IMG/VR virus record: IMGVR_UViG_3300049216_000628
Coordinates: 1-39,115 of that record
Source of the DNA: a virus
Length of the DNA: 39,115 bases
Reading direction: 5' to 3' (one strand)
Of this stretch, positions 6,278 to 31,783 are shown in pieces. Every line of letters begins with the position of its first letter. The first letter of the stretch is position 1. The position numbers and the translations under genes are program-made. The notes under the pieces were generated by a model that worked only from the letters and a program-made list of their open reading frames with translations, had not been told where the DNA came from and ran no database searches.

Positions 6278-6682
6278 TCAGCACGTGAGGTATTCCCGCT
6301 GTCTGTGCCACTCGGGGGCGAACGGCTTCAACAAAGTGTCGAGCTGGAGAGTCACGACCTGCCGGCCGTCCAGAATCGCCTCAACGATGTCAGGTGCGAG
6401 GAGCGTCAGGCGCAGAATCCGGCACAGGTAGGAGTCGTTGATCCGCTCCGCCCCTGCCAGATCTGCTACAGAAGCGTATTGCCCGCTTTCGATGAGCCGC
6501 TTCCAGCGGTGGGCGCGTGCGAGGGCTTTCGCCATGGCACTATCCACCCGGTCCTGACTCCGCGCGTAGTTCGCTCCCTCTGGCGAAACGACCAACTTCC
6601 GTCCTCCGTGCTTCCGTAGGGCAAACGATACGCGGACGGTCACGGTCCGGCCGTCCTTAGTGGGAGGCGCGGCGCGACTCAT
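6278..6682 (-). CDS. Recombinase-associated small HTH-like protein
   Basis: A 134-aa protein, last gene of the recombinase cassette. Its ATG overlaps the recombinase stop as ATGA. The middle (ASVADLAGAERINDSYLCRILRL) resembles a ParB/KorB-type helix-turn-helix, so DNA binding is plausible. Proteins of this kind repeatedly follow DUF2924-linked serine recombinases in alphaproteobacterial mobile elements; their function is unknown. An accessory or directionality role for the recombinase is an inference from position alone. Confidence 0.7.
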   Translation of the reverse strand: MSRAAPPTKDGRTVTVRVSFALRKHGGRKLVVSPEGANYARSQDRVDSAMAKALARAHRWKRLIESGQYASVADLAGAERINDSYLCRILRLTLLAPDIVEAILDGRQVVTLQLDTLLKPFAPEWHRQREYLTC

Positions 6683-7986
6683 GCCGCTCTCCGCGCAACA
6701 TCGGAAATATCCCGGACCATATTGACGAGCCCGTCGACACGAAGTCGGAGATCGACGCCGCCGACGTCGACGTCAATTCGCTCGACCAGCAATTGGACGA
6801 TGCGAGCCTGCTCTGCAGGGAAGAGCTCATCCCAAAGAGGATCGAGCTGCTCCAGGGCCTCGCGCACTTCGCCTTCCGTGAGATCGTGGACGTTCGCCCG
6901 AGCCGCCCGCCACGTCTGAATGATTATCTCCGGTGACCTGAGGAGTGCCCGAATCTGATCAACCACGGCCGCCTCGATCTCAGCCGCGGGAAGCCGGCCG
7001 ATTGCGGAAGCGTCGGCACCGCCTTTGATCACGGTCTGACTCACGTAGTAGCGGTAAAGCTTAGGGCCACGCCGCGTGTGGGTCGGCGACATGGCCCGGC
7101 CGTCCGGACCAAAGATGAGCCCCTTAAGGAGAGCGGGCGTCTGCGCCCGCGTTCGTCCGGCACGCACTTTCGGGCTCTCAGCGAGAACCGCCTGAACCTT
7201 TTCCCAGAGCGGCTTGGGGATGATCGCCTCGTGTTCGCCGGGATAGGCCGTGCCCTTGTGGACGGCGTCACCGACGTAGACACGGTTGTGGAGGAGCTTG
7301 TAGATGCGGCCCTTGTCGAGCTTCTGACCGTATTTGTTGACGAAGCCCTTGGCGGCCAGTTCACGGACAACGGTGAGAGTCGAGCGGCACTTGGCGAAGC
7401 GATCGAAGATGCGGCGGACCGCCGCCGCCTCCGTCTCGTTGACGACGAGCTTCCGGTCCTTGATGTCGTAGCCGAGCGGCGCCCAGCCCCCCATCCACAT
7501 GCCCTTCTTGCGGGAAGCGGCGAACTTGTCCCGGATACGCTCCCCGATGACCTCGCGCTCGAACTGCGCGAAGGAGAGTAGGATGTTGAGCGTGAGCCGT
7601 CCCATGGAGGTCGTGGTGTTGAACGACTGGGTGACGCTGACGAAGGTGACGCCCTTCCGGTCGAAGACCTCAACCAGCTTCGCGAAGTCCATCAACGAGC
7701 GGCTGAGGCGGTCGATCTTGTAGACGACGATGACGTCGACGCGGCCGGCTTCGATGTCGGCGAGGAGCCGCCGAAGGGCCGGCCGTTCCAATGTGCCCCC
7801 GGAGAAGCCGCCGTCATCATAGCCGTCCGGCACCAGCACCCAGCCTTCGGGCTTCTGGCTAGCAACATAGGCCTCGCAAGACTCGCGCTGGGCGTCGAGG
7901 CTGTTGAACTCCATGTCGAGGCCCTCCTCGCTCGACTTCCGGGTATAGACGGCGCAGCGGAGCTTGCGGACGATCGGCTTCTTCAT
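6679..7986 (-). CDS. Large serine recombinase (phage integrase)
   Basis: A 435-aa protein from the ATG at 7984-7986. This start gives an ATGA overlap with the upstream DUF2924 stop and a protein beginning just before the resolvase domain; an in-frame start upstream would run into DUF2924. The resolvase domain has YTRKSSEEG with catalytic Ser18, the DGGFSGGTLERP and YKIDRLSRS motifs, and the FERE-IGERIRDK helix. A recombinase domain (GWAPLGYDI) and a C-terminal segment follow. It is rather short for the large serine family and has no obvious zinc-ribbon cysteines. The role is site-specific integration and excision, without a need for host IHF. It marks the left part of the prophage. Confidence 0.93.
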   Translation of the reverse strand: MKKPIVRKLRCAVYTRKSSEEGLDMEFNSLDAQRESCEAYVASQKPEGWVLVPDGYDDGGFSGGTLERPALRRLLADIEAGRVDVIVVYKIDRLSRSLMDFAKLVEVFDRKGVTFVSVTQSFNTTTSMGRLTLNILLSFAQFEREVIGERIRDKFAASRKKGMWMGGWAPLGYDIKDRKLVVNETEAAAVRRIFDRFAKCRSTLTVVRELAAKGFVNKYGQKLDKGRIYKLLHNRVYVGDAVHKGTAYPGEHEAIIPKPLWEKVQAVLAESPKVRAGRTRAQTPALLKGLIFGPDGRAMSPTHTRRGPKLYRYYVSQTVIKGGADASAIGRLPAAEIEAAVVDQIRALLRSPEIIIQTWRAARANVHDLTEGEVREALEQLDPLWDELFPAEQARIVQLLVERIDVDVGGVDLRLRVDGLVNMVRDISDVARRAA

Positions 7987-8429
7987 GGCCGGCCTCGCTG
8001 ATTCTTGAGGCCGAAGAAGACCCAGCCGTTCCACCGCGTGCCGGTAATGGCGCGCGCCACCGCGGACAGCGATTTGTAGGGCCGTCCCTGATACTCGTAG
8101 TCATGGTCGCGGACGGTCACGCAGTGCTCGACACCCTGCCACTCGCGAATGAGACGCGTGCCGCTGATCGGCTTTTCCTCGGTGCGCGTGCGACGGAGAA
8201 CGACGTCCCCGCCGTCGATCTGCCGGGCGAGTGCTTCGAGACGTTCAATGGTCTCGGGCTTCAGCCCGCCATAGGCGAGTTCCTGGATGCGGTAGGCGAG
8301 GCGGCTTTCGAGGAAACGGCGATTGTAGGGTGGCGGCTCCGTCTCGAAGAGGTCCCGCCACTGCCGCTTCAGGTCCGGCGTGGGCGTGGTCTTCAGCGCC
8401 GCTAATCGGGCAAGAACAGTATCGGTCAC
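7983..8429 (-). CDS. DUF2924 protein
   Basis: A 148-aa protein starting at GTG 8427-8429, which overlaps the stop of the upstream small gene as GTGA. The family signature is clear: FLESRLAYRIQELAYGGL near residue 45 and YEYQGRPYKSLSAVARAITG with NGWVFFGL at the C-terminus. DUF2924 proteins almost always precede a serine recombinase in Alphaproteobacteria. The biochemical role is unknown. The strict linkage and the start/stop overlaps suggest equimolar production and a shared function, perhaps DNA binding at the att site. Confidence 0.88.
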   Translation of the reverse strand: MTDTVLARLAALKTTPTPDLKRQWRDLFETEPPPYNRRFLESRLAYRIQELAYGGLKPETIERLEALARQIDGGDVVLRRTRTEEKPISGTRLIREWQGVEHCVTVRDHDYEYQGRPYKSLSAVARAITGTRWNGWVFFGLKNQRGRP

Positions 8430-10569: not shown

Positions 10570-10660
10570 CCTGACCTCCACCGGTTCTGATTGCCGAATC
10601 TTTTTTGGGCGGCGGCCTGCCGGCCGTCGCCGATGGAAAAGTGGCGGATCGGACCACAAA

Positions 10661-10695
10661 TGTCAAGATTATACTTGCGCGTCCGATTTACGGAC
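10661..10695 (-). promoter_or_regulatory. Candidate promoter/operator of the XRE-ImmA operon
   Basis: On the minus strand there is a perfect TATAAT (10668-10673) inside CAAG-ATTATA-CTTG. About where the -35 box would sit is the palindrome GTCCG-ATTTA-CGGAC (10681-10695). A palindrome over the -35 of a divergent XRE regulator fits autoregulation. TTGACA also occurs on the minus strand at 10661-10666 but lacks a matching -10. Which box is used is not settled. Confidence 0.35.
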
Positions 10696-10743
10696 ATAGA
10701 GTCGCAGCCTATCAGTGCCGGCGATTCTCGCGTGCACGAGTCT

Positions 10744-10763
10744 CTGGTCCTCAATTTCTAGGA
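10744..10763. promoter_or_regulatory. Second palindrome in the switch region
   Basis: GGTCCT and AGGACC arms around an 8-nt A/T-rich centre, 66 bp before the first early gene. The size and placement suit an operator bound by a dimeric HTH protein controlling the early operon. No convincing -35/-10 pair was found next to it. Confidence 0.3.
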
Positions 10764-10828
10764 CCCGATGGTCGCCGGAACCCATCCACCTGCTCGCCGC
10801 GCGCGGGCAAGCATAAGGTTCGACGACC

Positions 10829-12939: not shown

Positions 12940-13043
12940 CCACAATCTTCTGCCTGTTTTTCTGCCGCCTCGCCCCGCGATTTTCTCCCATACGCTTTGC
13001 GAAGAGTCCCTCGGCGCTGCTTGCAAACCCGAGGTGACTCGCC

Positions 13044-13265
13044 ATGACGATCAAGCATCTTAATCAGGTCGAACTCTCTCGCCGCTGGAGCATCAGCCCG
13101 CGCACGCTGGAGCGCTGGCGCTGGCTCGGCCAGGGGCCGCAATACCTCAAGATCGGCGGCCGGGTCGTCTATCGGCTCGATGACGTCGAAGCCTACGAGG
13201 CGCAGCAGGTTCATACCCCGACCACAATCAGTCTCGGTGTCCTGTCGCATGTGAGCCATGCTTGA
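13044..13265 (+). CDS. Excisionase/AlpA-like HTH protein
   Basis: A 73-aa protein with GAGGTG eight nucleotides before the ATG. It has a typical HTH_17/MerR-like fold: LNQVELSRRWSISPRTLERWRWLGQGPQYLKIGGRVVY, then RLDDVEAYEA. Such proteins act as excisionases or AlpA-type regulators. The position between the early unknown genes and the primase suggests either directionality for the serine recombinase or control of replication genes. Its stop lies just before the primase start. Confidence 0.88.
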   Translation: MTIKHLNQVELSRRWSISPRTLERWRWLGQGPQYLKIGGRVVYRLDDVEAYEAQQVHTPTTISLGVLSHVSHA

Positions 13266-13279
13266 GCTCGTGGCGACCG

Positions 13280-15607
13280 ATGACCGACGCCGACGGCGCA
13301 AATCAGCCAATCGCCCCAGACCCCGGAATGATCGCGGCCTTCGCGGCCGTCCTGTTCCGCTATTCCGAAGGCTGGGTCGCCGTGCGGGCGTTTCCCGAGA
13401 AAGGCGATGCAGGCCAGCCCGCCCGAACGCCCTTCGTCGCTGCCGACGCTGGGCTCGCCGCGAAGCTCCTCGTCGAAGCGGACGAGGCGACGAAGAAGGG
13501 CCTCGCCCTCTACGTCGTCGGTGGCGTGGTGTCCGCTCCCGGAAAGGCCAAGGCAGGCGATGTCATCGCCATCGAGACCGTTCTGGTCGACCTCGACCAC
13601 GGCGACATCACGGCAAAGCGTGAGCATCTGGTGAGGCACCTCGGGCCACCGTCCCTTGAGGTGGCATCGGGCGGCATTACGGAAGAGGGGCAGGATCGCC
13701 TCCACCTCTATTGGAAGCTCAACGAGCCCGCGACGGGCGCCGATGTCGCCAAGGTGTGCGAGCTGAGGGGATCGATCGCCGCCAGGGTTGGTGGTGACCC
13801 GTCCTTCCGCTCGGCGCACCAGCCGATCCGAGTGGCTGGCTCGGTCTACCGGAAGGGTGGGGTCGAGCGCCTGGTCACCATCCGGGCGGAAGAGGAGGTC
13901 GAGAACGACCTCACCGACTTCGCTGCGCGCGTCGCGGCCATGCCGGCGATGGACGGCGAAACCGGGCCTGAGGTCCAGTCCCCCGCGGGTAAGGGCTCGG
14001 TCGTCGAACTGTTCGCGCGTCAGGTCCACGAAGGCGGTGTCGACGGTGTCACCCGCTTCGACGCTTTGAGCCGAATCATCGGCTACTGGATTCGCCGCTT
14101 CCGCGAGGGTCACGTCACCCGCGAGCAGGCGTGGGAAGAGATCGTCGCCTACAACGCCGCGCGCATTGTCCCGCCCTGGCCGCTCGACCGGTTGAAGCAG
14201 GAGGCACAGCGGCTGTGGCAGCGCGACTCCAAACGCCAGGGCCGTCGCGCCGGCGGAGATGGCGAGGACAGCGGCGACGAGTCCACTCCGACCGAGTTCA
14301 CCGAGGACGCGCTCGCCTTGGAGTTCACCCGCCGCCACGGCCGCGATTGGGCCTACGTCGCGGCGTGGGGCCAATGGCTGGTCTGGACCGGTGCGCGTTG
14401 GGAACGCGAGGCCACGCTCCGCGCCTTTGATCTCGCCCGCATCGTTTGCCGCGAAGCCGCGGAGGGGTGCGAGAAGCCCGCTCTGAAGGCGAAGATCGCG
14501 AGCGCGCCTACCGTCGCCGCCATCGAGCGGCTGGCTCGGGCGGACCGGTCCCACGCCGCGCCGAGCGATCGTTGGGATCGTGACCCGTGGCTCCTGAACA
14601 CGCCGGGCGGCATCGTCGACCTTCGGACCGGGAGGCTTGGCGATCACGATCGGGCGCTTGCGATGACCAGGATCGCAACGGCGACGCCTGCCGAGCACTG
14701 CCCGACCTGGCTGGAGTTCCTCGTGACGATCACCAACGACGACGCCGACCTGCAGGCCTATCTCCAGCGTGTCGTCGGCTACTGCCTGACGGGGATTACT
14801 ACCGAGCACGCGCTGTTCTTCCTCTACGGCACGGGAGCGAACGGCAAGTCGGTCTTCGTCAACACCGTCTCGACCATCCTCGGCGACTACGCCACCACGG
14901 CGCCGATGGACATGTTCATGGCGGCGACCGGCGAGCGGCACCCGACCGACATGGCCGGGCTCCGCGGGGCGCGGCTCGTCGCGGCGGTCGAGACCGAGCA
15001 GGGGCGCCGCTGGGCCGAGAGCAAGCTGAAGGCGCTGACCGGCGGTGACAAAATCACCGCCCGCTTCATGCGCCAGGACTTCTTCGAGTTCATTCCGCAG
15101 TTCAAGCTCATCGTCGCCGGCAACCACAAACCTTCGATCCGCAATGTGGATGAGGCGATGCGGCGCCGGCTGCACCTCATTCCCTTCACCGTGACCATCC
15201 CGCCAGCCAAGCGCGACAAGACGCTGCCCGAGCGCCTGCTCGCCGAGAGCGACGGGATTCTCGCATGGGCCGTTGAGGGCTGCCTGGAATGGCAACGCGT
15301 CGGCCTGAAGCCGCCCGCCGCGGTCGCCGCCGCCACCAACGAGTATTTCGAGGCCGAGGACGCCCTCGGCCGGTGGCTGGACGAATGCTGCGAGCGGGGC
15401 GCTGCGCACGGCGAGACCACGGCAGCGCTTTACGACGCTTGGAAGTCCTGGGCGGACGCCAGCGGCGAATACGCCGGCTCGAAGAAGCGCTTCTCCGAGA
15501 ACCTCATCGGTCGTGGCTTCGAACCTTACCGGGACCGAGCTGCCCGCGGCTTTCGCGGTCTGCGCCTCCGCGAGGGCAGCCTCAGCACCGATGGAATGGA
15601 GTTCTGA
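13280..15607 (+). CDS. P4-type primase-helicase (AEP/RepB-like primase + D5_N + SF3 helicase)
   Basis: A 775-aa protein from ATG 13280; a TTG at 13262 that overlaps the HTH stop is an alternative adding six residues. The N-terminal primase has an acidic VLVDLDHGD motif, HLYW and a SAHQPIRVAGS segment, as in RepB/PrimPol-type archaeo-eukaryotic primases. A D5_N-like region follows from about residue 330. The superfamily 3 helicase has Walker A GTGANGKS (517-524), a Walker B region with VAAVETEQGRRW, and motif C FKLIVAGNHKP. This is the phage or satellite replication initiator. In P4 the related alpha protein binds iterons at its origin, which makes the repeat clusters just downstream relevant. 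Confidence 0.93.
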   Translation: MTDADGANQPIAPDPGMIAAFAAVLFRYSEGWVAVRAFPEKGDAGQPARTPFVAADAGLAAKLLVEADEATKKGLALYVVGGVVSAPGKAKAGDVIAIETVLVDLDHGDITAKREHLVRHLGPPSLEVASGGITEEGQDRLHLYWKLNEPATGADVAKVCELRGSIAARVGGDPSFRSAHQPIRVAGSVYRKGGVERLVTIRAEEEVENDLTDFAARVAAMPAMDGETGPEVQSPAGKGSVVELFARQVHEGGVDGVTRFDALSRIIGYWIRRFREGHVTREQAWEEIVAYNAARIVPPWPLDRLKQEAQRLWQRDSKRQGRRAGGDGEDSGDESTPTEFTEDALALEFTRRHGRDWAYVAAWGQWLVWTGARWEREATLRAFDLARIVCREAAEGCEKPALKAKIASAPTVAAIERLARADRSHAAPSDRWDRDPWLLNTPGGIVDLRTGRLGDHDRALAMTRIATATPAEHCPTWLEFLVTITNDDADLQAYLQRVVGYCLTGITTEHALFFLYGTGANGKSVFVNTVSTILGDYATTAPMDMFMAATGERHPTDMAGLRGARLVAAVETEQGRRWAESKLKALTGGDKITARFMRQDFFEFIPQFKLIVAGNHKPSIRNVDEAMRRRLHLIPFTVTIPPAKRDKTLPERLLAESDGILAWAVEGCLEWQRVGLKPPAAVAAATNEYFEAEDALGRWLDECCERGAAHGETTAALYDAWKSWADASGEYAGSKKRFSENLIGRGFEPYRDRAARGFRGLRLREGSLSTDGMEF

Positions 15608-16534: not shown

Positions 16535-17923
16535 ATGCCACCCCGGCTGCCCGACACGGTCGAGCACTGGCCGCTTGACCGTCTGCGTCCCTATGCCCGC
16601 AATCCGCGGACGCACTCCGACGAGCAGGTGGCGCAGATCGCGGCTTCAATCGTCGAGTTCGGCTGGACCAACCCGGTCCTGGTCTCGGGCGACGGGACGG
16701 TCATCGCCGGCCACGGTCGCCTCGATGCCGCCCGCCGGCTCGGGCTCGACGCGGTGCCGGTGCTGGTCCTTGACCATCTTTCAGAGGCACAGCGGCGCGC
16801 CTACGTGATCGCCGACAACAAGCTCGTGCTCAATGCCGGCTGGAACGAGGAGCTGCTGGCGGCCGAGTTGCACGCGCTGAACGGCGACGGCTTCGACCTG
16901 GCGCTGACCGGCTTCGACGAGACCGAACTCGACCGCCTGCTGGCGCCGCTCGACGAAGCGGATGACGGCGAGGCCGAAGCGGACGGCGACCAGGCGCTGG
17001 ACCCACCACGGAATCCGGTCACGCTGCCCGGCGACCTCTGGTGCCTCGGTTCACATCGGTTGCTTTGTGGCGACAGCACGAAATCGGAAGACGTGGCGCG
17101 GGTGATGGATGGCGAGCGTGCATCGCTCCTTTTCACGAGCCCGCCTTACGGCAACCAGCGCGACTACACGACCGGCGGCATCGGCGATTGGGATGCCCTG
17201 ATGCAGGGTGCCTTCGGGCGGCTTGCGGATGTGATGGCCGACGACGGTCAGGTCCTGGTCAATCTCGGGCTGGTCCACCGCGACAACGAGTGGCAGCCCT
17301 ATTGGCAAGGTTGGCTCGATTGGATGCGGGAGCAGGGCTGGCGCCGCTTCGGTTTGTACATCTGGGATCAGGGTCCCGGCCTGCCGGGCGACTGGAACGG
17401 CCGGCTCGCCCCGGCCTTCGAGTTCCTCTTCCACTTCAATCGCGCGGCGCGAAAGCCGAACAAGATCGTCCCTTGCAAGTGGGCCGGCCACATCAACGAT
17501 TCCCACGGCGGCATGCGCGACAAGGACGGTTCGGTCGGCGAATGGACGCACGCCGGCCAAGGCGTCCAGGAAACCCGGATCCCGGACAACGTCATTCGCA
17601 TCACCCGCCACAAGGCACGCGGCATCGAGACCGAGCATCCGGCGGTCTTCCCGGTCGCGTTACCTGAGTTCATCATGAACGCCTACTCCGAGACGAACGA
17701 TGTCATCTTCGAGCCGTTCGCCGGTTCGGGAACGACGCTGATCGCTGGCGAACGCGCCGGCCGTCGCGTCCGTGCGATCGAGCTGGCGTCCTCCTACGTC
17801 GACGTCGCGATCCTGCGCTGGCGCATGCTCCACCCGGCCTCGCCAGTCACCCTCGATGGCGACGGACGCTCGTTCGAGGAGATCGCCGCCGAGCGCGGCG
17901 TGGACATCGGCAATGGCGCCTGA
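16535..17923 (+). CDS. ParB-domain DNA methyltransferase 1
   Basis: A 462-aa fusion. Residues 9-125 form a ParB/Srx nuclease-like domain (RLRPYARNPRTHSDEQVAQI, GDGTVIAGHGR, YVIADNKL). The C-terminal part is a beta-class methyltransferase with motif IV TSPPYGNQRDY before the SAM motif FEPFAGSGTT. TSPPY favours N4-cytosine, but N6-adenine is possible. It is the first of two adjacent enzymes of the same architecture; the stop overlaps the next start by 11 nt. Phage ParB-methyltransferases modify phage DNA and protect it from host restriction. Confidence 0.92.
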   Translation: MPPRLPDTVEHWPLDRLRPYARNPRTHSDEQVAQIAASIVEFGWTNPVLVSGDGTVIAGHGRLDAARRLGLDAVPVLVLDHLSEAQRRAYVIADNKLVLNAGWNEELLAAELHALNGDGFDLALTGFDETELDRLLAPLDEADDGEAEADGDQALDPPRNPVTLPGDLWCLGSHRLLCGDSTKSEDVARVMDGERASLLFTSPPYGNQRDYTTGGIGDWDALMQGAFGRLADVMADDGQVLVNLGLVHRDNEWQPYWQGWLDWMREQGWRRFGLYIWDQGPGLPGDWNGRLAPAFEFLFHFNRAARKPNKIVPCKWAGHINDSHGGMRDKDGSVGEWTHAGQGVQETRIPDNVIRITRHKARGIETEHPAVFPVALPEFIMNAYSETNDVIFEPFAGSGTTLIAGERAGRRVRAIELASSYVDVAILRWRMLHPASPVTLDGDGRSFEEIAAERGVDIGNGA

Positions 17924-19163
17924 ATTGGGCGAGATCGAACGCTGGCCGGTCGAGCGTCTTCTGCCCTACGCGGCGAATGCCCGGACGCATCCGGACGACC
18001 AGATCGCCCAGATCGCCGGCTCGATCGCGGAGTTCGGCTTCAATGTTCCGTGCCTGGTAGACGAGCGGGGCGTGCTCATCGCTGGTCATGGCCGCCTGCT
18101 TGCCGCGAGGAAGCTGGGCCTCACCGACGTTCCGGTCATCCGGCTGGACCATCTGACTGACGCGCAGGCCCGCGCCTTCCGCATTGCCGACAACCAGATT
18201 GCCGTGAATGCCGGTTGGGACGACGCGCCGCTGTCGGCGGAGCTGGCCCGTCTCAAGGAGGACGGGGTCGACCTCGAGCTGCTGGGCTTCCCGGAAAGCG
18301 AACTTGATCGCCTGCTGGCCGGGCTCGCCGGAGAGTCGGGAGCGGACGGCGACGAAGATGCTGTGCCCGAGCCGCCAGCCGACCCGGTCACACGGCCGGG
18401 CGATCTCTGGCTCCTCGGCGACCACCGGCTGCTCTGCGGCGATGCAACGATCGCGACGGATGTCGAACGATTGCTCGGCGGCACCGTTCCGCACTTGATG
18501 GTCACCGACCCGCCCTATGGCGTCGAGTACGATCCGTCCTGGCGGAACGAGGCCGGCGTATCCGCGACCACGCGCACCGGCAAGGTGAGCAATGACGACC
18601 GTGCCGATTGGCGGGAAGCTTGGGCCTTGTTCCCCGGCGACGTCGCCTATGTCTGGCACGCGGGCGTCCATGCCCGCACTGTCGCCGAGAGCCTTGAGGC
18701 GGCTGGCTTCCCGGTGCGCTCGCAGATCATCTGGGCAAAGCCGCGCTTCGTCCTTGGCCGTGGCGACTACCATTGGCAGCACGAGCCGTGCTTCTACGCC
18801 GTCCGCAAGGGCGCGACCGGTCACTGGCAAGGTGCGCGCGACCAGTCGACGCTATGGACGATCGGCGCCACCGGCGATGAGGACGAAGCGACGGTCCACG
18901 GCACGCAGAAGCCGGTCGAGTGCATGCGCCGGCCAATCGTCAACAACAGCGCCAAGGGTGAAGCCGCCTACGAGCCCTTCGCCGGCAGCGGCACCACGAT
19001 CATCGCGGCCGAGACCATTGACCGCCGGTGCCTCGCGATGGAGATCGACCCTCGCTATTGCGATGTGGCCGTCGACCGCTGGCAGAAATTCACGGGCGGG
19101 ACTGCGATACTCGAAGGCGACGGATCGGCATTCGACGAGGCGAAGGCGGCGCGAGCCGCTTGA
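17913..19163 (+). CDS. ParB-domain DNA methyltransferase 2
   Basis: A 416-aa protein from ATG 17913, overlapping methyltransferase 1. The same ParB-like domain (RLLPYAANARTHPDDQIAQI, GVLIAGHGR, FRIADNQ) is followed by motif IV TDPPYGVEYDPSW and the SAM motif YEPFAGSGTT. TDPPY points to N6-adenine. The middle segment, where the target is usually read, differs fully from enzyme 1, so the pair looks like a tandem duplication that diverged to two specificities. The gene ends directly against a convergent minus-strand gene with no gap. Confidence 0.92.
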   Translation: MAPELGEIERWPVERLLPYAANARTHPDDQIAQIAGSIAEFGFNVPCLVDERGVLIAGHGRLLAARKLGLTDVPVIRLDHLTDAQARAFRIADNQIAVNAGWDDAPLSAELARLKEDGVDLELLGFPESELDRLLAGLAGESGADGDEDAVPEPPADPVTRPGDLWLLGDHRLLCGDATIATDVERLLGGTVPHLMVTDPPYGVEYDPSWRNEAGVSATTRTGKVSNDDRADWREAWALFPGDVAYVWHAGVHARTVAESLEAAGFPVRSQIIWAKPRFVLGRGDYHWQHEPCFYAVRKGATGHWQGARDQSTLWTIGATGDEDEATVHGTQKPVECMRRPIVNNSAKGEAAYEPFAGSGTTIIAAETIDRRCLAMEIDPRYCDVAVDRWQKFTGGTAILEGDGSAFDEAKAARAA

Positions 19164-20659: not shown

Positions 20660-20824
20660 CGGTTTCGGTGCCCCATAGATGCGCTGCGCGGGCCCGGAGC
20701 CAAGCGGATAAGCGTCTCATTTGATTGCTTTTTTGAAGGTCATTTCGCGGTCAGGGCGGATCGCCGCGCCACGCTCTCGCCGTGCGTGACGAAAAAGCTA
20801 ACGATTTCGACTAGGCTCTGCGCC
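20660..20824. promoter_or_regulatory. Divergent gap between small-gene operon and sce7726 gene
   Basis: 165 bp between a minus-strand and a plus-strand start, so two promoters are expected. An A/T-rich stretch around 20716-20745 stands out in otherwise GC-rich sequence. No -35/-10 pair with good spacing was found. Confidence 0.3.
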
Positions 20825-21409
20825 ATGCGCGATTCAGATGTCAGGGCGGCGGTGCGGCGCGCGCTCGCCAAGGACTACGGCGACGATCCCAGCACCCGGA
20901 TCGTCGAGGAAATGGGCATCTGGTCGGGAACAGTCCGCGTCGACGTGGCCGTGATCAACGGCGAGCTGCACGGGTTCGAACTCAAGAGCGAGCGCGACAC
21001 CCTTGAGCGGCTGGAAGCGCAGCGAGATTTGTACAATCAAGTATTCGATCGCGTGACGCTGGTCGCGGCGTCTCGTCATCTGGATACCGCTCTCCGCAGG
21101 ATTCCCGAGTGGTGGGGTGTCACGCGGGCAGTCCAGGAAGAGGATGGCTCTGTTCGATTGCGGCAGGTGCGACGAGCAAAGCGAAACAGGCACCAAGTAC
21201 CGTTGCAGTGTGCGCGCCTGCTGTGGCGCTCGGAAGCACTCTCGATTCTGGAACGCTATGGAATTGACCGTGGGTTCAGATCACGGCCGGCAGAAGCCAT
21301 CTCTGAGCGCCTGGCGCTGCACCTTCCCATCCGTGTGCTCGTTCGCGAAGTAAGAGAGACGTTGAAGGTGCGGCCGACGTGGCTAGGGCAGGCGGTTGGC
21401 AACCAGTGA
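20825..21409 (+). CDS. sce7726 family protein (PD-(D/E)XK-like)
   Basis: A 194-aa protein from ATG 20825 (MRDSDVRAAVRRALAKDYG). The sce7726 signature is VRVDVAVINGELHGFELKSERDTLERL: D in VDVAV and E-x-K in FELKSE make a compact PD-(D/E)XK-type active site, followed by QRDLYNQVFDRVTLVA. Such proteins are predicted nucleases found next to sce7725/Beta-type partners. The partner here is the convergent Beta gene, whose 3' end overlaps this one by 27 nt. It is more A/T-rich than the flanking phage genes toward its 3' end. An anti-phage cargo role is inferred. Confidence 0.78.
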   Translation: MRDSDVRAAVRRALAKDYGDDPSTRIVEEMGIWSGTVRVDVAVINGELHGFELKSERDTLERLEAQRDLYNQVFDRVTLVAASRHLDTALRRIPEWWGVTRAVQEEDGSVRLRQVRRAKRNRHQVPLQCARLLWRSEALSILERYGIDRGFRSRPAEAISERLALHLPIRVLVREVRETLKVRPTWLGQAVGNQ

Positions 21410-22387
21410 GAGATGACGACTTGCAGCAATCGAAGCCCAAGTGGTTCGATTGCCGGCACCACCGGAGCCCAGGGCGATTTGTCCGACGCGTAGGTCGCCC
21501 CAACAATTGCTCAGGCCGCCAAAATTCGGATCACTCGCAAGCGTCTTGGCGTGCATACGGTACTGCTTGTCCATCGGCTGACCGGTCTTGCCTCTTGTCG
21601 GCCGGCCCTTCAATACGATCCACCGATCATCGAGCGTGTATCGGACGCTCACTGTAGCTCTCGTCATCGCGACGCCGGGCGGATCCGTGAGGTCCGGATG
21701 CGCGGATGCGTAGTCTCCATAGTGCAAAGCGAAAGGCGCGCTTCCCGACACGGCCACCCATGTAAGCCAATCACGGCGCGGGACCTCGTTGCGCCCCGTC
21801 GTCAACCCACCATGATCTTTGGGGGCCGCAGACGCCGCCAGCGTGACCGTGCGCCATAGTGGCGTGGCACTAATTTTGTCCGTGAGTGCGGTTGTGACCA
21901 CCTGGGCGAGCAGGCTCGGATCAAAACCGCTGACCTCCTTTAGATCAATCACGAGGTCGATTTCCGCCGCCGTCCAGCCCTGGGTCGAAATCCATGAGGC
22001 GAGGCTTGCCAATTCATTCAGCTTAGCCTTGAGGACCAAACCGTTGGCGTACCGTCCGCGGGCTTTCTGTACGACGGCCAAGTAAGCGGGGTCCGCCCCG
22101 AACTCGACGCATGGAATGACTGGGACTTTGCCCTTTCCCAACCGATCGTAGATATGAATGTATTGCATGCTTGCGCCCGTAAGGTCGACGTGAAACGTGC
22201 CGTCCAGCGCGAGCGGTAGACCCATCCACGAGGCTGCGACGGAATCAGCAAATCCGGCCGGGGGCTTGAGCACGAGGTTGATGATCGGGAAGAGGCGCGC
22301 CTTTTCCTGCACCGACAGGGTCTGAAGCGCGTTGGCCTCTCCAGTTTTGCTGCGAAGCAACGGCAAGTACCGAAACTTTCCGGCCAT
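21383..22387 (-). CDS. Beta family protein (T4 beta-protein-like, PF14350 type)
   Basis: A 334-aa protein from ATG 22387, chosen for GGAGGG four bases upstream; a start 30 nt earlier lacks one. It begins MAGKFRYLPLLRSKTGE, has FPIINLVLKPP, and carries VPVIPCVEFGAD and EIDLVIDLKEV, the alternating strands of a TIM-barrel-like fold, then ATVSVRYTLDDRWIVLKGRP. This matches Beta-family proteins encoded near sce7726 genes. Biochemical role unknown. Its A/T content, orientation against the late genes and placement just before terminase are typical of a cargo gene. Confidence 0.78.
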   Translation of the reverse strand: MAGKFRYLPLLRSKTGEANALQTLSVQEKARLFPIINLVLKPPAGFADSVAASWMGLPLALDGTFHVDLTGASMQYIHIYDRLGKGKVPVIPCVEFGADPAYLAVVQKARGRYANGLVLKAKLNELASLASWISTQGWTAAEIDLVIDLKEVSGFDPSLLAQVVTTALTDKISATPLWRTVTLAASAAPKDHGGLTTGRNEVPRRDWLTWVAVSGSAPFALHYGDYASAHPDLTDPPGVAMTRATVSVRYTLDDRWIVLKGRPTRGKTGQPMDKQYRMHAKTLASDPNFGGLSNCWGDLRVGQIALGSGGAGNRTTWASIAASRHLSLVANRLP

Positions 22388-22485
22388 GGTTCCCTCCGTA
22401 AGAGAATCCGTCGCCATTCTAATCTAATGGTTGTGGGCGTCTATCGGGCCGTCGGCGTGGTTGCTCTCTCTCAGTGGGGTCGGAC

Positions 22486-23043
22486 GTGGGATTGTCGATC
22501 CGTGGCTATGCGCGGCAGCGGGGCGTCAGCCACGTCGCGGTCCTTCGCGCCGCCAAGGCGGGTCGCATCACGCTTGAGCCGGACGGCACTGTCGATCCGG
22601 CCAAGGCCGACGCGGCGTGGGAGCGCTCGACCGATCCCGGCCGCGCGAAGAAAGCCAAGGCGAAGCCGCCCGAGAAACTGAAGCCTGTCGCGGAAGCCGC
22701 AATGGGCTCCGTCCGCGAGACCCTGAAGGAACAGGGCCTGCCCTCGGGCGGCAACGTCACTTTCGTCCAGGCACGCACCGCCCACGAGATCGCCAAGGCG
22801 CATCTGGCACGGCTTCGCTTGCAGCGCATGAAGGGCGAGCTGGTCGACCGGGCGCGGGCGACAGCGCTTGTCTTCCGGCTGGCACGTGAGGAGCGCGACG
22901 GCTGGGTCAATTGGCCGGCGCGGGTCGCAGCGTTGATGGCGGCGGAACTCGGCGTGGAGGCGCATCCGATGCAGAAACTTCTGGAGACGCATGTCCGCGC
23001 TCACCTCGCCGAGCTTGCCGAGGTCCGACCCGAGTTTCGGTGA
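22486..23043 (+). CDS. Terminase small subunit-like protein (Nu1-type)
   Basis: A 185-aa protein. GTG 22486 is chosen because GGGG lies six bases upstream; GTG 22474 would add four residues. The N-terminal winged HTH (LSIRGYARQRGVSHVAVLRAAKAGRI) reads as a DNA-packaging recognition domain, followed by a long helix (FVQARTAHEIAKAHLARLRLQRMKGELVDR) for oligomerisation. It overlaps TerL by 53 nt. It recognises the packaging site and loads the TerL motor. Confidence 0.82.
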   Translation: MGLSIRGYARQRGVSHVAVLRAAKAGRITLEPDGTVDPAKADAAWERSTDPGRAKKAKAKPPEKLKPVAEAAMGSVRETLKEQGLPSGGNVTFVQARTAHEIAKAHLARLRLQRMKGELVDRARATALVFRLAREERDGWVNWPARVAALMAAELGVEAHPMQKLLETHVRAHLAELAEVRPEFR

Positions 23044-25009: not shown

Positions 25010-25215
25010 TCTGGAGCAATGTCGAACTCGACGCGCTGAAGCGCGCCTATTCCTCCGGAACGCTCCGTGTCAGCTATGAGGGGAAGAGCGTCGAATACGG
25101 CTCGGCCGATGATCTTTTGAAGCGCATCCGGACGATCGAGCGCGAGATGGCGGCGGCGACGCCTTCCCCGCTGCCCCTTGCCGGCTTCGCTGGTTTCTCG
25201 CGCGGCGACGGCTGA
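24997..25215 (+). CDS. gpW-like head-tail joining protein
   Basis: A 72-aa protein overlapping the TerL end by 13 nt and the portal start as TGATG. WSNVELDALKRAYSSGTLRVSYEGKSVEYGSADDLLKRIRTIEREM fits the small gpW fold. The order TerL, gpW, portal matches lambda. Confidence 0.82.
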   Translation: MAQVIWSNVELDALKRAYSSGTLRVSYEGKSVEYGSADDLLKRIRTIEREMAAATPSPLPLAGFAGFSRGDG

Positions 25216-26705
25216 TGGCGGACGTGAATTGGCTCGACCGGGCGATCGGCACCGTCGCACCGCGAGCCGGGCTGCGTCGCGTCCTCGCGCGGCAGAGCTT
25301 CGCGGCTCTGACGCGGGGCTATGACGGCGCCGCCAAGGGCCGGCGCACGGATGGCTGGCGTGCGGCAGGGACCTCGGCGGATGCCGAGATCGCGGTCGCC
25401 GGCGGGCTTCTCCGGGATCGCATGCGCGATTTGGTGCGCAACAATCCGCATGCCGCCAAAGCAGTCTCCGTCCTGGTCAACAACATCGTCGGCGCCGGGA
25501 TCATCCCGCGTGCGGCGACTGGTGACGACCGCCTCGACGCCGAGGTCAACAAGCTTTGGGAGGACTGGTCCACCCGCTGCGATGCTGACGGGCAGCTGGA
25601 CTTCTTCGGGCTGCAGACCCTGGCCTGCCGGCAGATGATCGAAGCGGGCGAGGTGCTGCTCCGCCGCCGGCCACGCCGTCCGGGTGACGGGCTCGAGGTG
25701 CCTCTGCAGGTCCAGCTCCTCGAGGCCGACATGCTGGATGCTGCAAGGAACGGTGATCTCGCCGATGGCGGGCGGATCGTTCAGGGCGTCGAGTTCGATG
25801 GCATCGGCCGACGCCGGGCCTACTGGCTTCACGCGCAGCATCCGGGCAACGCGGTCGTCTCTTCGCGGCTGCGCTTCGACAGTATTGGCGTGCCCGCGAC
25901 TGACGTGCTGCATCTCTACGAGAAGCAGCGGGCGCAGGTCCGCGGTGTCCCGTGGGGCACGCCGGTTATGCGGGCGCTCCGCGACCTCGACGACTGGACG
26001 CAGGCCGAGCTCGTCCGCAAGAAAACCGAGGCGTGTGTCGTCGGCATCGTCCTCGGCGCCGACGAGGCGGAACAGGGCGTTGCGCCCTCGGTGGTCGACG
26101 CCGACGGCAACCGGGTCGAACAGTTCGAGCCGGGCCTCATCGCCTATGCTCGCGGCGGCAAAGACATCAAGTTCAATCAGCCGGCGACGACCGCAGGAGT
26201 TGCCGAGTGGCTTCGGGCGCAGCTGCACATCGTCGCGGCCGGCTTCCGGCTGCCCTACGAATTGCTGACCGGCGACCTCAGTCAGGTCAACTATTCTTCG
26301 ATCCGGGCCGGGCTCGTCGAGTTCCGCCGGCTGATTGACGCTGTGCAGTGGCAGATCTTCGTACCCGTGTTCTGTCAGCCGGTGTGGGACTGGTTCACGG
26401 CGCAGGCGTGGGCAGCCGGGCGGCTTCGCTCGCCGACCGTTCCTGTCCAGTGGTCGCCGCCGCGCTTCGAGGCGGTCGACCCGTTGAAAGACGCTATGGC
26501 CGATCTTCTCGCCATGCGATCCGGCACCATGACGCTGGCGCAGGCCATAGCCCGGCAAGGCCATAACCCGGATGCGGTGCTTGCCGAGATCGCCGCCATG
26601 AACGCCAAGCTCGATGCGCTCGGCGTCATCCTCGACAGCGATCCGCGCAAGGTCACGAAGACCGGTGTGATCCAGTCTGAAACGACAATTCCCTCAACGG
26701 CATGA
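25215..26705 (+). CDS. Portal protein (lambda gpB family)
   Basis: A 496-aa protein. Conserved segments: RDLVRNNPHAAKAVSVLVNNIVGAGI (residues about 68-95), LEADMLD, DVLHLYEKQRAQVRGVPWGTPVMRALRDLDDW, and the portal C-terminal YELLTGDLSQVNYSSIRAGLVEFRRLID. It forms the dodecameric DNA channel at one capsid vertex. The next phage gene should be the protease-capsid gene, but the minus-strand Shedu gene starts its stop 11 nt after this stop. Confidence 0.95.
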   Translation: MADVNWLDRAIGTVAPRAGLRRVLARQSFAALTRGYDGAAKGRRTDGWRAAGTSADAEIAVAGGLLRDRMRDLVRNNPHAAKAVSVLVNNIVGAGIIPRAATGDDRLDAEVNKLWEDWSTRCDADGQLDFFGLQTLACRQMIEAGEVLLRRRPRRPGDGLEVPLQVQLLEADMLDAARNGDLADGGRIVQGVEFDGIGRRRAYWLHAQHPGNAVVSSRLRFDSIGVPATDVLHLYEKQRAQVRGVPWGTPVMRALRDLDDWTQAELVRKKTEACVVGIVLGADEAEQGVAPSVVDADGNRVEQFEPGLIAYARGGKDIKFNQPATTAGVAEWLRAQLHIVAAGFRLPYELLTGDLSQVNYSSIRAGLVEFRRLIDAVQWQIFVPVFCQPVWDWFTAQAWAAGRLRSPTVPVQWSPPRFEAVDPLKDAMADLLAMRSGTMTLAQAIARQGHNPDAVLAEIAAMNAKLDALGVILDSDPRKVTKTGVIQSETTIPSTA

Positions 26706-26716
26706 GCTCGCCGGCG

Positions 26717-28243
26717 CTAACTCTCTGAGATCGATGGCTCAAGTCGTCCGGCGGCTTCGCCCGATGCGGGCCGATCGACCTCGGCTGAGGCCAGCGACGC
26801 TCGAAGGACCTCTAGCAGATGCTCCAACTTGCTGAGCAACTCATCAAACGTGATCACCAAGACCGACTTGAGCCCGTTCCTAAACAGCTCGAAGGATTTG
26901 AGCTCCGACTTCCCCTCGGGAGTTCGCCCCGCGATCACTAAGCCTTGTATCGCGTAGCTCTCGACATCCCAAATTCCCGACGAGTCCTTAAGAACAGTGA
27001 TCGTTTTCTGCAGCTGGTATCGTTGATCCAGCACTTGGTTGACCGCTCCGGCCAGCTCACGACCGGGACCATGAAGATCGCCGCGATAGGGCGCCGATTC
27101 AACGACCGCGGTCTCAGGTGTTTTGATCTCCACGAGAGCGAGATTGCCGCTAGCTGCTGCCTTCACGGCAAAATCGCTGATCTTGTCACCGGAGCCGCTG
27201 AACTTTCGACCACCGACCGAGATTTGATCCCCTATCATCATGATCGGCAGGCCGAAGGCGAGCCTCAAAACAAAGGGGTTCTCGGCAAAGAAAGTCTGCC
27301 AAGCGCTCTCTTTCAGCTTCTTCGAGAGCATCTTCTTTAGCCGCACGACTAGCTCTTCCAGAGTGACGACCTCAATCTCTCGGTTCAACTCCAGTAGTGC
27401 TTCGGGTTCACTCCGCCGAACAGACCTCGCTGATGTGGTAGCCGCTGCGACCACCGCCTTTCGGTCTTCCGCTGAAAGAACGACGGTGCGTGCGAGGCTC
27501 TTACCAATCGCTTCCAGAATCGCATCTTTGCGATACTCCCGATGTTTCTCGGGAAACTTCTTCGGATCGACAGCGGTCAGAAGCGTGTTGTGGGTGACGA
27601 CCCACTTCTCTTCAGACGCGATCGAGAGCGCCTTCTCATGTATGCGGTTAATCGCTTTGCGCGCGTCGTCGAACGCGCCGGCACCAATTGCGTAGGTGGC
27701 TCCCTCAATCACTGGGACACCACCTGCGCGACGCCCGCGGCGCAGACGAAGATCGGTCACACCGTCGATTTCTTCTATCGACTCGATCAAGTATCGAAGG
27801 TCGTAGTTGAGGCCGAGCCCAAAGTAGGGGTCCTTCACGAATCCCGACGGAAGACCTCTCAGGGCGTCGATCAAGGCCTCATCGCTGTCGATGTCCGAGA
27901 AGCGAAAGCCATCGAGGGTAATCGTGCGAAGAGTTGCGTATTTCGGGTCCAGAAACGCGCGGCTGGTAGCAGTCGTGTTCAACGGATAGGTGACAACCAC
28001 GTCCGTCTTCTCGGTCCCCTCGACGAGCAGAATTTGCCTCGAAGGTGCTGAGAAATCGCTGTTGATGTTCTTAGCTATGCGAATGGCCTCTGGCGCGGGC
28101 CGATAGTGGAGCGTCCAATGACCAGGTTTCTTGCTGGCAAAAGCAAGAACAGCCCCATCCTCGGCGGTGGCGACATAGCCGGTGCGAAAGCGGTTCGGTG
28201 GCAGTGTCCTGACTCCCCTGATGTCAAGCCGCGTGCGGATCAA
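26717..28243 (-). CDS. sduA: Shedu immune nuclease SduA (DUF4263)
   Basis: A 508-aa protein. The C-terminal DUF4263 domain is clear: W315-Q-T-FF...NPFVLRLAF, D357 in KISDFAV, and the E372-I-K374 pair in LALVEIKTPET, the PD-(D/E)XK centre of Shedu, followed by AVNQVLDQ. The N-terminal 300 residues are the variable sensing region of this single-gene anti-phage system. The start is a TTG; a stop codon lies two codons upstream in frame, and no ATG or GTG occurs near the N-terminus, so TTG is the first usable codon. No clear ribosome site was seen. It is antisense to the structural genes, lies between portal and protease-capsid, and is about half A/T in stretches where the neighbours are clearly GC-rich. 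Confidence 0.9.
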   Translation of the reverse strand: MIRTRLDIRGVRTLPPNRFRTGYVATAEDGAVLAFASKKPGHWTLHYRPAPEAIRIAKNINSDFSAPSRQILLVEGTEKTDVVVTYPLNTTATSRAFLDPKYATLRTITLDGFRFSDIDSDEALIDALRGLPSGFVKDPYFGLGLNYDLRYLIESIEEIDGVTDLRLRRGRRAGGVPVIEGATYAIGAGAFDDARKAINRIHEKALSIASEEKWVVTHNTLLTAVDPKKFPEKHREYRKDAILEAIGKSLARTVVLSAEDRKAVVAAATTSARSVRRSEPEALLELNREIEVVTLEELVVRLKKMLSKKLKESAWQTFFAENPFVLRLAFGLPIMMIGDQISVGGRKFSGSGDKISDFAVKAAASGNLALVEIKTPETAVVESAPYRGDLHGPGRELAGAVNQVLDQRYQLQKTITVLKDSSGIWDVESYAIQGLVIAGRTPEGKSELKSFELFRNGLKSVLVITFDELLSKLEHLLEVLRASLASAEVDRPASGEAAGRLEPSISES

Positions 28244-28339
28244 CCACTATATTTGCCCGCCTGCCCAAAGAAAGCCGGGTGCGAAGATCTCCGGACGCCC
28301 TCGTGGTCTGAACTCGCTAACCCAGCCAACGGATAGCAA

Positions 28340-30382
28340 ATGCCCGAAAGAATTGATTTCCCTGCCTTCCGGCGGGCCGCCGACCTATTACCCGCGACCA
28401 TAGACGAGGGCGACCGCTCGATCGACGTCGTCTGGTCGACAGGGGCGCGGGTGCGGCGCCAACCATTCTTCGGCGAGCCGTTCGACGAAGAGCTGAGCAT
28501 GGACACGGCCCATGTCCGGCTTGAGCGGCTGAATGGCGGCGCGCCACTCCTCAAGGTTCACGACCGTTTCGCACTTGAGTCGGTGATCGGCTCGGTGGTG
28601 CCCGGAACCGCGCGGATCGAGAACGGTCGGGGCGTTGCCCGCGTCCGCTTCAGCGACCGTGAGGATGTCGCGCCGATCTGGACCGACATCCGGGATGGGC
28701 ACATCCGCGCAGTGTCCATTGGCTACCAGGTCCAGCGCTACGAAATCTCGAAGCCCGCCAACAGCCCCGAGCTGTGGCGGGCGGTCGACTGGACCCCCTT
28801 CGAAATCTCCGCGGTCCCGGTCGGGGCCGATCCGGCGGCCGGCTTCCGCTCGGTTGATCCCGTCATGCCCTGCGTCGTCACCCGGGACGACGCCCCGAAC
28901 GTAAGGAACCTATCCATGGACAAGACCGACAACGCGCCGGCCGCGCCGGCAACCGAGGTCGAGGACGAGGCGCCGCCAGCGCTTCCTGCCAAGGAAACCG
29001 GCAGCGGCAAACGCATCCGATCGGCCGAACGCGCCGCCGAGCCTGCGGCTTCGGCGATCGAGAGTCGCCAACGCGAGCAGGCGGCAGAGACGGACGCGCT
29101 GGTCGCCCGTACGCAGGAAGCCGAGCGCACCCGAGTCGGCACGATCTACGACCTTGCCGCGCGCCTCGGACTGGAGCGGACGATGGCCGAGGACCTCGTA
29201 TCTCGCGGCGTCGCCATCGACGAGGCCCGCCGTGTCATCCTCGATAAGGTCGCCGAGAACTCCGAGCGGACGCGGACTTTCCCGCACGTCTCGGTGCCCC
29301 TCGGAGGTCGCGACGAACGGGTCACTCGCCGCGACGCCGTGGCGAATGCGCTTCTCCATCGTTACAGCCCGACGCTCTTCCAGCTCTCGGAGCCCGCCCG
29401 GGAATATCGCGGCATGACGCTCCTGGAGCTTGCCCGCGAGTTCCTGGGATCGGCCGGCGTCAATGTCCGCGGCTTCTCGCGTGACGAGATCGCCACCCGG
29501 GCGCTGCACTCCACCTCCGATTTCCCCGAGGTGCTGTCGGCGGTCACCAACAAGACCCTGCGGCAGGCTTACGAGGTCTACCCGCGCACCTTCGTGCCCT
29601 TCTGCCGGCAGGTGCTTGCCACCGACTTCAAGGCCATGAACCGGGTGCAGATCGGCGAGGCGCCGCAACTCCTGAAGGTCAATGAGAGCGGCGAGTTCAA
29701 GCGCGGCACCATCGCCGAGTCGAAGGAAAGCTACCGCATCGAGACCTATGGCCGTGTGGTCGGCGTCACCCGTCAGGTGCTGATCAACGACGACCTCGAC
29801 GCCTTCACCCGCATCCCGGCCATGTACGGAACGGCCATCGCGACGCTGGAAAGCGACGTGGTCTGGGCGATCATCACCGCCAACGCGGCGATGGCTGACG
29901 GCGTGGCGCTGTTCCATGCCACCCACAAGAATCTCGCCGGCACCGGCGCGGCCTTGAGCGTCACCAGCGTCGGCGAGGGCCGCGCTTCGATGGCCAAGCA
30001 AACCGGCCTCGACAAGAAGACGGTCCTCAACATCCGCCCAGCCTACTTGGTTGTGCCGGCGTCGCTCGAACTCGCCGCTGAGCAGCTGATCGCCCAGAAC
30101 CTCGTCCCGGCCAAGACCGGCGACGTGGTCCCGCAATCGATCCGCACGCTCAACCCAATCGCCGAGCCCCGGCTCGATGCGGTCAGCCTCACGGCGTGGT
30201 ACCTCGCGGCAAGCCCCGCCCAGATCGACACGGTCGAGTTCGCTTACCTCGAAGGCCAGCAGGGCGCCTATATCGAGACCCGCAACGGCTTCGATGTCGA
30301 TGGCGTCGAGATCAAGTGCCGGCTCGATTTCGGGGCAAAGGCTATCGACTGGCGCGGCCTCTACAAGAACGCTGGCGCGTAG
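28340..30382 (+). CDS. Prohead protease / major capsid protein fusion
   Basis: A 680-aa protein. Residues 1-190 are an HK97-type S78/U35 prohead protease with H74 (LKVHDRF) and S126 (AVSIGYQ) as likely catalytic pair. A proline/alanine-rich stretch and a helical scaffold (about 200-330) follow. Residues about 330-680 form an HK97-fold capsid protein (TLRQAYEVYPRTFVPFC, YRIETYGRVVGVTRQVLINDDLDAF, PAYLVVPASLELAAEQL, GVEIKCRLDFGAKAIDWRGLYKN). Protease, scaffold and capsid in one chain implies autoproteolysis at maturation, with all parts present one to one. It is preceded by the 96-bp gap after Shedu. Confidence 0.92.
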   Translation: MPERIDFPAFRRAADLLPATIDEGDRSIDVVWSTGARVRRQPFFGEPFDEELSMDTAHVRLERLNGGAPLLKVHDRFALESVIGSVVPGTARIENGRGVARVRFSDREDVAPIWTDIRDGHIRAVSIGYQVQRYEISKPANSPELWRAVDWTPFEISAVPVGADPAAGFRSVDPVMPCVVTRDDAPNVRNLSMDKTDNAPAAPATEVEDEAPPALPAKETGSGKRIRSAERAAEPAASAIESRQREQAAETDALVARTQEAERTRVGTIYDLAARLGLERTMAEDLVSRGVAIDEARRVILDKVAENSERTRTFPHVSVPLGGRDERVTRRDAVANALLHRYSPTLFQLSEPAREYRGMTLLELAREFLGSAGVNVRGFSRDEIATRALHSTSDFPEVLSAVTNKTLRQAYEVYPRTFVPFCRQVLATDFKAMNRVQIGEAPQLLKVNESGEFKRGTIAESKESYRIETYGRVVGVTRQVLINDDLDAFTRIPAMYGTAIATLESDVVWAIITANAAMADGVALFHATHKNLAGTGAALSVTSVGEGRASMAKQTGLDKKTVLNIRPAYLVVPASLELAAEQLIAQNLVPAKTGDVVPQSIRTLNPIAEPRLDAVSLTAWYLAASPAQIDTVEFAYLEGQQGAYIETRNGFDVDGVEIKCRLDFGAKAIDWRGLYKNAGA

Positions 30383-30804: not shown

Positions 30805-31122
30805 GTGTCAGCCTTTCCGGCGGCGGTCGATGCGATCTTTGCCGACAACAATATCGGCGAGGCCGCGATCTGGCGGACGGGTGGTGTTGGCGCCGGTGTT
30901 CCCGTGCGCGTCATCCGCAAGTCTCCCGACAAGATCGTCGGGTTTGGCGATAGCCGGGCGATGATGCCCTCGGTCCTGGTCGACGTCCGAACCTCCGAGA
31001 TCGACTTGCCGGCCGCGGGGGATACTGTCGAGATTGCCGGTGGCGTCTTCGACGTCAACGCCGAACCGACCGCCGACACGCTTCGCCTCGTCTGGTCCTG
31101 CGAAGCGTCGCTGCGACCCTGA
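30805..31122 (+). CDS. Head-tail joining protein
   Basis: A 105-aa protein from GTG 30805. AAVDAIFADNNIGEAAIWRTGG, RVIRKSPDKIVGFGDSRA, PAAGDTVEIAGGVFDV and DTLRLVWSCEASL match small head-tail connectors of the lambda FII/Gifsy-2 joining type. The order after DUF2190 supports this. Confidence 0.75.
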   Translation: MSAFPAAVDAIFADNNIGEAAIWRTGGVGAGVPVRVIRKSPDKIVGFGDSRAMMPSVLVDVRTSEIDLPAAGDTVEIAGGVFDVNAEPTADTLRLVWSCEASLRP

Positions 31123-31126
31123 TCCC

Positions 31127-31783
31127 ATGCGCTTCGATCTGAAGGCCGACGATGTCGGCGCAATGCTCAAGGGCGCGGTGACCGATGTCGAGAGGGCGGT
31201 CACCGCCGCCATGGACGACGTGACCGGCGGGTTGAAGGCGGAACTGCGCGAGCAGGTGACAGGCTCGGGTCTCGGCGGACGCCTCGCCAATACCTGGCGC
31301 GGCAAGCGCTATCCGGTCTCCGGTCAGAGCGCCGATGCCGCGGCCTTCGTCTGGTCGCGAGCGCCGAACATCATCGATGCGTTCGAGCGTGGCGTGACCA
31401 TCCGCTCTAAGCGAGGGCTCTGGCTTGCTATTCCGACGCCGGCAGCCGGCGCCACCGGGCTCGATGCCTCGGGCGCGCGGAAACGCGTCACACCGGGCGG
31501 CTGGGAGAGGCGGACCGGAATGCGGCTCCGCTTCGTCTACCGGCGCGGCGCCCCATCATTGCTCGTCGCCGACGATGCGCGTCTTGGCAAATCGGGACTG
31601 GCGCAATCGCGGGTCCGCAAGACCAAGGCTGGCGGTTCCTATGTGCCGATCACCGGCCGCCAAACCATCGTCGTCTTCATCCTCGTGCCGCAGGTGACGC
31701 TCCGGAAGCGCCTCGACGTTGAGGGCGCCGGCAACCGCTGGGCGGATCGCGTCCCCGGCCTCATTGCGCAGCACTGGACATGA
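31127..31783 (+). CDS. DUF6441 protein (minor tail/connector)
   Basis: A 218-aa protein from ATG 31127 (MRFDLKADDVGAMLKGAVTDVERAVTAAMDDV). The amphipathic N-terminal helix, TWRGKRYPVSG, IPTPAAGATGLDASGARKRVTPGGW and the C-terminal QHWT resemble DUF6441 proteins of alphaproteobacterial phages. Its position between the head-tail joiner and tail terminator is where lambda has gpZ, so a tail-completion role is inferred. Confidence 0.75.
   Translation: MRFDLKADDVGAMLKGAVTDVERAVTAAMDDVTGGLKAELREQVTGSGLGGRLANTWRGKRYPVSGQSADAAAFVWSRAPNIIDAFERGVTIRSKRGLWLAIPTPAAGATGLDASGARKRVTPGGWERRTGMRLRFVYRRGAPSLLVADDARLGKSGLAQSRVRKTKAGGSYVPITGRQTIVVFILVPQVTLRKRLDVEGAGNRWADRVPGLIAQHWT

Follow-up and report, generated by a model that had tools for sequence, protein, structure and literature searches.

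An antisense Shedu gene in the head operon of a probably temperate phage points to a recurrent cargo site at the portal-capsid seam

Why does a defence gene on the opposite strand lie between the portal and the capsid gene of a phage, and is this position peculiar to one genome or a place where phages of this kind exchange genes? The locus belongs to the IMG/VR virus record IMGVR_UViG_3300049216_000628; the window, i.e., the whole stretch of DNA that was analysed, comprises 39,115 bp. The phage is probably temperate, since the window encodes a large serine recombinase acting as integrase (Table 1). Its head operon is canonical, with the gene order small terminase, large terminase, gpW-like gene, portal, protease-capsid fusion, cement protein, and tail genes. 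A preliminary description made from the letters of the DNA had placed an antisense Shedu gene between the portal and capsid genes, 11 nt from the portal stop codon. Family and structure matches confirm the gene and its place: both neighbours are of full length, the portal stop codon occupies positions 26703-26705, and that of the Shedu gene begins at 26717. No Rfam matches are found in the window.

Table 1. Features of the window at and around the portal-capsid seam
Feature	Position	Strand	Matches and remarks
Large serine recombinase (integrase)	6679..8034	-	phrog_95, E 1.5e-109; Resolvase, Recombinase, Zn_ribbon_recom
Portal gene, lambda family	25215..26705	+	PF05136, E 1.2e-116; phrog_21; intact, left of Shedu
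Variable segment (cassette)	26676..28338		portal tail codons, Shedu, and spacer with capsid ribosome-binding site
Gap between convergent portal and Shedu stops	26706..26716		11 nt, too short for a terminator
Shedu (SduA) nuclease ORF	26717..28243	-	SduA_C, PADLOC SduA, 8ti8; 508 codons open
Shedu coding part, probable	26717-28204	-	
Spacer	28205..28339		carries capsid ribosome-binding site; putative site of a leftward Shedu promoter
Protease-capsid fusion gene	28340..30382	+	phrog_4523, E 8e-249; Phage_capsid_4; intact, right of Shedu

The inserted reading frame matches the SduA_C (DUF4263) domain of Pfam with an E value of 1.2e-22 (81 bits, cut-off of 27), the PADLOC model SduA with 9e-152 (504 bits, residues 42 to 489), and the solved Shedu protein 8ti8, of the B. 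cereus type, with 1e-21. The D...E-x-K motif is intact, as had been proposed. Residues D357, E372, and K374, the PD-(D/E)xK catalytic residues by which a Shedu nuclease is recognized, do not vary among five aligned homologues and are also aligned with 8ti8. Four Shedu proteins from rhizobial and methylobacterial plasmids share 35 to 46% identity with the window protein. Since the homologues, including the one from Methylorubrum, start at window residue 14, the first 13 codons are likely untranslated. The alignment thus suggests that the true start is probably the CTG at 28204, behind AGGGGAG, and not the TTG at 28243; counted from there, the catalytic residues are D344, E359, and K361. The protein shares with known Shedu systems the C-terminal SduA_C nuclease domain with its D and E-x-K residues, whereas its N-terminal part is unmatched by solved Shedu structures and differs from the E. 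coli Shedu subtype. A second difference from known Shedu systems is the antisense position inside a phage head operon.

The gene is foreign by composition. It is richer in A/T than its neighbours, as the preliminary description had noted, with a GC content of 0.571 compared to 0.66 to 0.69 for the large phage genes. Its GC3 of 0.657 is set against 0.82 to 0.88 for these genes (0.817 for the portal gene and 0.846 for the capsid gene), an unlike composition of the kind expected of a moron. Scans of IMG/VR for this Shedu subfamily yield a single other contig, L287; no phage gene of the window was found on it. A -10-like hexamer, TATAGT, is seen by eye upstream of the gene at 28251-28246; a scan for promoters and terminators at the ends of the gene shows nothing above chance.

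Relatives of the capsid and portal genes were gathered from IMG/VR, giving 135 distinct junctions with the window counted in, and a junction was regarded as filled when an insert made it exceed the median length by 300 nt or more. From the portal stop to the capsid start, nearly all relatives show a distance between a 1-nt overlap and 20 nt (44 nt in four), and RcBaka, an isolated phage, has a 4-nt overlap of its portal and capsid genes. The seam is shorter than 20 nt in ∼90% of the relatives, in line with the earlier statement that portal and capsid genes are normally adjacent. In the remainder, it is filled with unrelated genes, which makes the layout of the window more than chance. Filled junctions number 13 of 135, the window among them, and four further relatives (L002, L084, L094, and L096) are filled on contigs ending in or beside the cargo. 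Two loci were left out of the count: L053, which has a transposase upstream of the capsid gene and a portal gene that is not detectable, and L035, whose apparent insert of 484 nt was rejected as a filled seam on account of a frameshifted portal gene. A DNA tree was built for 65 portals of known state. It has 14 filled tips and implies at least 12 switches between filled and empty, or 14 when the cargo type is counted. The three seams directly upstream are filled in 0 of 85, 0 of 123, and 0 of 125 cases. Seams farther downstream take inserts too; the portal-capsid seam is one of several permissive seams and not the sole one.

The strongest comparison comes from the four nearest relatives, with 88 to 91% DNA identity to the window, which together with the window show five different states of the seam. 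In L083 the variable segment is missing and the seam is empty, with a gap of 7 nt; its DNA aligns to the window up to position 26675 and again from 28339, with identities of 91% and 87% on the two sides. The other three carry other content in place of the segment. L085 has an antisense gene with a HEPN-type Rx4H motif, recognized by eye in a protein without a family match. The cargo of L084 is a pair of genes in convergent orientation, one of them a DUF488 gene, that match the two components of PDC-M19, a candidate defence system. In L002 an antisense gene without a family match contains a D...E-I-Q-V-K stretch. No seam of any relative contains Shedu, so the idea of Shedu as a fixed gene of the phage family was rejected; the preliminary description had named its presence in all related phages, with matching composition, as the outcome that would speak against a cargo site. 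The insert lies between genes adjacent in relatives, as in morons, and unrelated systems turn over at one site among close relatives, as in prophage defence hotspots. The comparison across relatives thus bears out the proposed use of this junction, and the sequences indicate that this family of temperate phages has a recurrent cargo (moron) site at the portal-capsid seam.

Beyond what had been described before, the seam also takes toxin-antitoxin pairs in antisense orientation: other lineages contain an antisense MazEF there (PF02452 and PF11455). Further lineages have an antisense gene that resembles DUF2971 proteins in our reading and has no Pfam match. L096 and L100 carry a sense-strand gene without a family match, and L247 carries an antisense one. 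No family matches were obtained for the cargos of L002, L094, L096/L100, and L247. Among the seam cargos, Shedu is the only tested defence family, PDC-M19 being a candidate system. In a plasmid search, the cargos of L094 and L085 have relatives on a range of plasmids, most of them rhizobial, and the L100-type cargo has no match; structure prediction for the L085 and L100 cargos yields poor models with mean pLDDT values of 53 and 36. The bacterial genome G642, from the same order as Rhizobium altiplani, has a 97%-identical portal gene followed by a PDC-M19-like cassette at the same seam. Given this filled seam on a chromosome, an assembly artefact is unlikely, and Hyphomicrobiales are indicated as the hosts. 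The locus L305 (G642:C18:369000-388900) is a chromosomal prophage remnant in which the portal gene and the seam cargo are kept and most capsid-to-tail genes are deleted.

How the cassettes are replaced is suggested by the points at which homology ends. DNA alignments of near relatives to the window stop at 26665-26684, i.e., 21 to 40 nt before the portal stop codon, and restart at 28324-28372, within ∼30 nt of the capsid start. The portal codons for VTKTG and the codons of the capsid N terminus are conserved, and the stretch between them varies with the cargo, including the last portal codons 3' of VTKTG, which differ among relatives. This pattern fits cassettes that would be swapped by homologous recombination through the conserved flanks. 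A transposon or site-specific insertion was considered for the window and rejected, as a search for bracketing repeats around the cargo found none and the cargo is without a transposase or recombinase. A Shine-Dalgarno-like sequence precedes the capsid gene in every filled site, with a median strength of -5.0 kcal/mol in filled and -4.0 kcal/mol in empty sites, and -3.3 kcal/mol in the window.

Accessory genes are also found elsewhere in the window and in its relatives. At 20737-22486, the window contains a second accessory pair with a GC3 of ∼0.70, a sce7726-family gene (+) and a Beta-family gene (-) in convergent orientation; the Beta-family protein matches PADLOC PD-Lambda-2_C. The pair is missing in L083 and L085, where its flanks lie 14 to 45 nt apart. 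Two tandem overlapping ORFs at 16535-19163 contain N6/N4 DNA methylase domains, the first also Pfam ParB_N, and both match ParB-like PHROGs. Positions 1-6100, outside the integrase gene, show a low GC3 and encode a type II DNA methyltransferase, a 510-aa protein without assignment, and an AAA protein matching part of PtuA; this region is either bacterial flank or another accessory block. Four relatives (L006, L034, L106, and L124) have antisense cargo flanked by the cement gene and the gene homologous to window 31034-31783, consisting of a RES-domain toxin gene (PF08808, matched on the L124 protein) and an upstream helix-turn-helix-like gene. L106 combines this downstream cargo with MazEF at the portal-capsid seam. 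L009 has a metabolic cargo at the same downstream seam, a 1082-codon antisense ORF (10533-13778) with cytochrome c and RoxA-like matches. Between the capsid and cement genes, L013 contains a sense-strand HNH endonuclease gene (6466-7209; Pfam match on L013 only), with similar ORFs in L049, L050, and L052.

Morons, prophage defence hotspots such as those of P2 beside cos, and noncontiguous operons are already known. The defence hotspots of P2 and P4 (PMC9122126) likewise form a small locus between conserved genes with a fast turnover of unrelated defence genes but sit beside cos and not inside the head operon, usually with one to several systems per site. The morons, or regions of genomic plasticity, of Mu-like phages of P. 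aeruginosa (PMC4378225) are single low-GC accessory genes between core genes, in one case amid head genes, and no recombinase target was seen there either; in contrast to the cargos described here, the head-region gene h encodes a virion protein on the late strand and not an antisense defence or toxin-antitoxin function. In the C. jejuni prophage CJIE4 (PMC3995785), mazF also adjoins the portal gene and growing cells have been found to contain its product, but it lies between the portal and large terminase genes, mazE was not found, and the gene is conserved in nearly all strains and not exchanged. Searches of the open-access literature brought up no account of the portal-capsid seam as a place where defence and toxin-antitoxin genes, mostly antisense, are exchanged, an absence that is weak evidence.

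The orientation of the cargos bears on their expression. Six of the eight cargo types are antisense, one is sense (L096/L100), and one is a convergent mixed pair (L084), an antisense bias over cargo types of 6 to 1 with one mixed (p ∼0.06, one-sided). The convergent stop codons range from a 1-nt overlap to 26 nt apart, which leaves no terminator between the late and the cargo transcripts. Every intact MazEF cassette contains the palindrome GTTACATGTAAC, an operator, directly upstream of mazE and 37 to 73 nt before the capsid gene; all other loci of the 286 examined lack it. Its restriction to intact cassettes is good evidence that the mazEF cargos are autonomous leftward units. In L017 and L212, the MazEF cassette is decaying, with mazE kept and most of mazF and the palindrome gone.

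The window shows the layout of a noncontiguous operon, an antisense gene nested in an operon, as known for the phi80 gene taiEcA. This prophage defence gene lies antisense inside the Q operon, and its protein is made in lysogeny, is lowered by over-expression of Q, and is unchanged after mitomycin induction (PMC11364771). An antisense defence gene interrupting the late operon is common to both phages, but the taiEcA product is not a nuclease, the genome location is another one, and cargo exchange at a single seam is not the subject of that study. The phi80 late operon additionally has a counter-defence gene, atiEcA, whereas none was found in the window phage. For tha and ith of 80alpha, antisense transcription is a minor contributor beside an inhibitor protein. 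The antisense layout as in phi80 and 80alpha is reported to help phages avoid autoimmunity (PMC11364771 for phi80).

Taken together, the reading that we consider reasonably probable is a recurrent cargo site whose Shedu gene would be on in lysogeny from its own promoter and lowered by late antisense transcription; the expression and the shut-off are the parts that we infer. The comparison shows many cassette exchanges at the seam, each with a variable portal tail, a foreign gene or pair, and a fresh ribosome-binding site for the capsid gene, with portal and capsid staying intact. With the late genes silent, Shedu would be read leftward from the spacer and would shield the lysogen by cutting incoming phage DNA. 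Upon induction, rightward late transcription would cross Shedu antisense to reach the capsid and tail genes and would lower its expression at a time when DNA ends are being produced by the terminase of the phage itself. The prophage would gain from this, because terminase makes DNA ends and it is to such ends that E. coli Shedu binds (reviewed in PMC12904381); for the window protein, DNA-end sensing is proposed by analogy, its N-terminal part being different from that of E. coli Shedu. The shut-off may be weak, given the constant level of the phi80 protein after mitomycin induction. Against timed control stand the lack of any promoter indication for Shedu other than the -10-like hexamer and the existence of one sense cargo type and one mixed pair. 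A broader reading is tentative: the seam may be a general docking port where selection favours antisense orientation as a built-in timer, so that a defence gene active in the lysogen would be turned down by late transcription as terminase makes nuclease-vulnerable ends, without a cognate inhibitor.

It is rather unlikely, though to be weighed seriously, that the cargo site works without timed control. Here, the seam would merely tolerate inserts, the portal tail being dispensable and capsid translation restarting on the new ribosome-binding site, and the cargos would be expressed in lysogeny from promoters of their own while late antisense transcription has no useful effect. The variation of portal tails even among empty sites is consistent with this, as are the sense cargo and mixed pair, the modest size of the antisense bias, and the phi80 result; however, antisense is the common state at this seam, and the same layout is credited with avoiding autoimmunity elsewhere. 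We regard as quite improbable that Shedu is a neutral recent gain, unexpressed and being lost as MazEF seems to be in L017 and L212. Frequent empty sites and the missing promoter match would suit such a passenger, but no stop interrupts the ∼495 codons of the Shedu frame, none of its catalytic residues is lost, and the other accessory genes are intact as well. Least probable of all, and very improbable, is that the assembly wrongly joined a phage contig to a bacterial Shedu locus. In favour of such a chimera, the virus record of the window comes without reads, and its Shedu subfamily is almost missing from other viral contigs. Against it, independent assemblies, among them a bacterial contig of 464 kb, have unrelated cargos exactly at the two breakpoints, the reading frames on either side are undamaged, and a ribosome-binding site still precedes the capsid gene.

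A single seam compared across phages is thus a place to harvest known and new defence genes. The cargos of L002, L094, L096/L100, and L247 are of interest because they are sited where relatives hold Shedu, PDC-M19-like, or MazEF genes. Phages that are nearly identical but have an empty seam, a sense cargo, or an antisense cargo further form a natural set for asking whether late antisense transcription spares the induced prophage from its own defence, a question that arises for most prophage-encoded defences.
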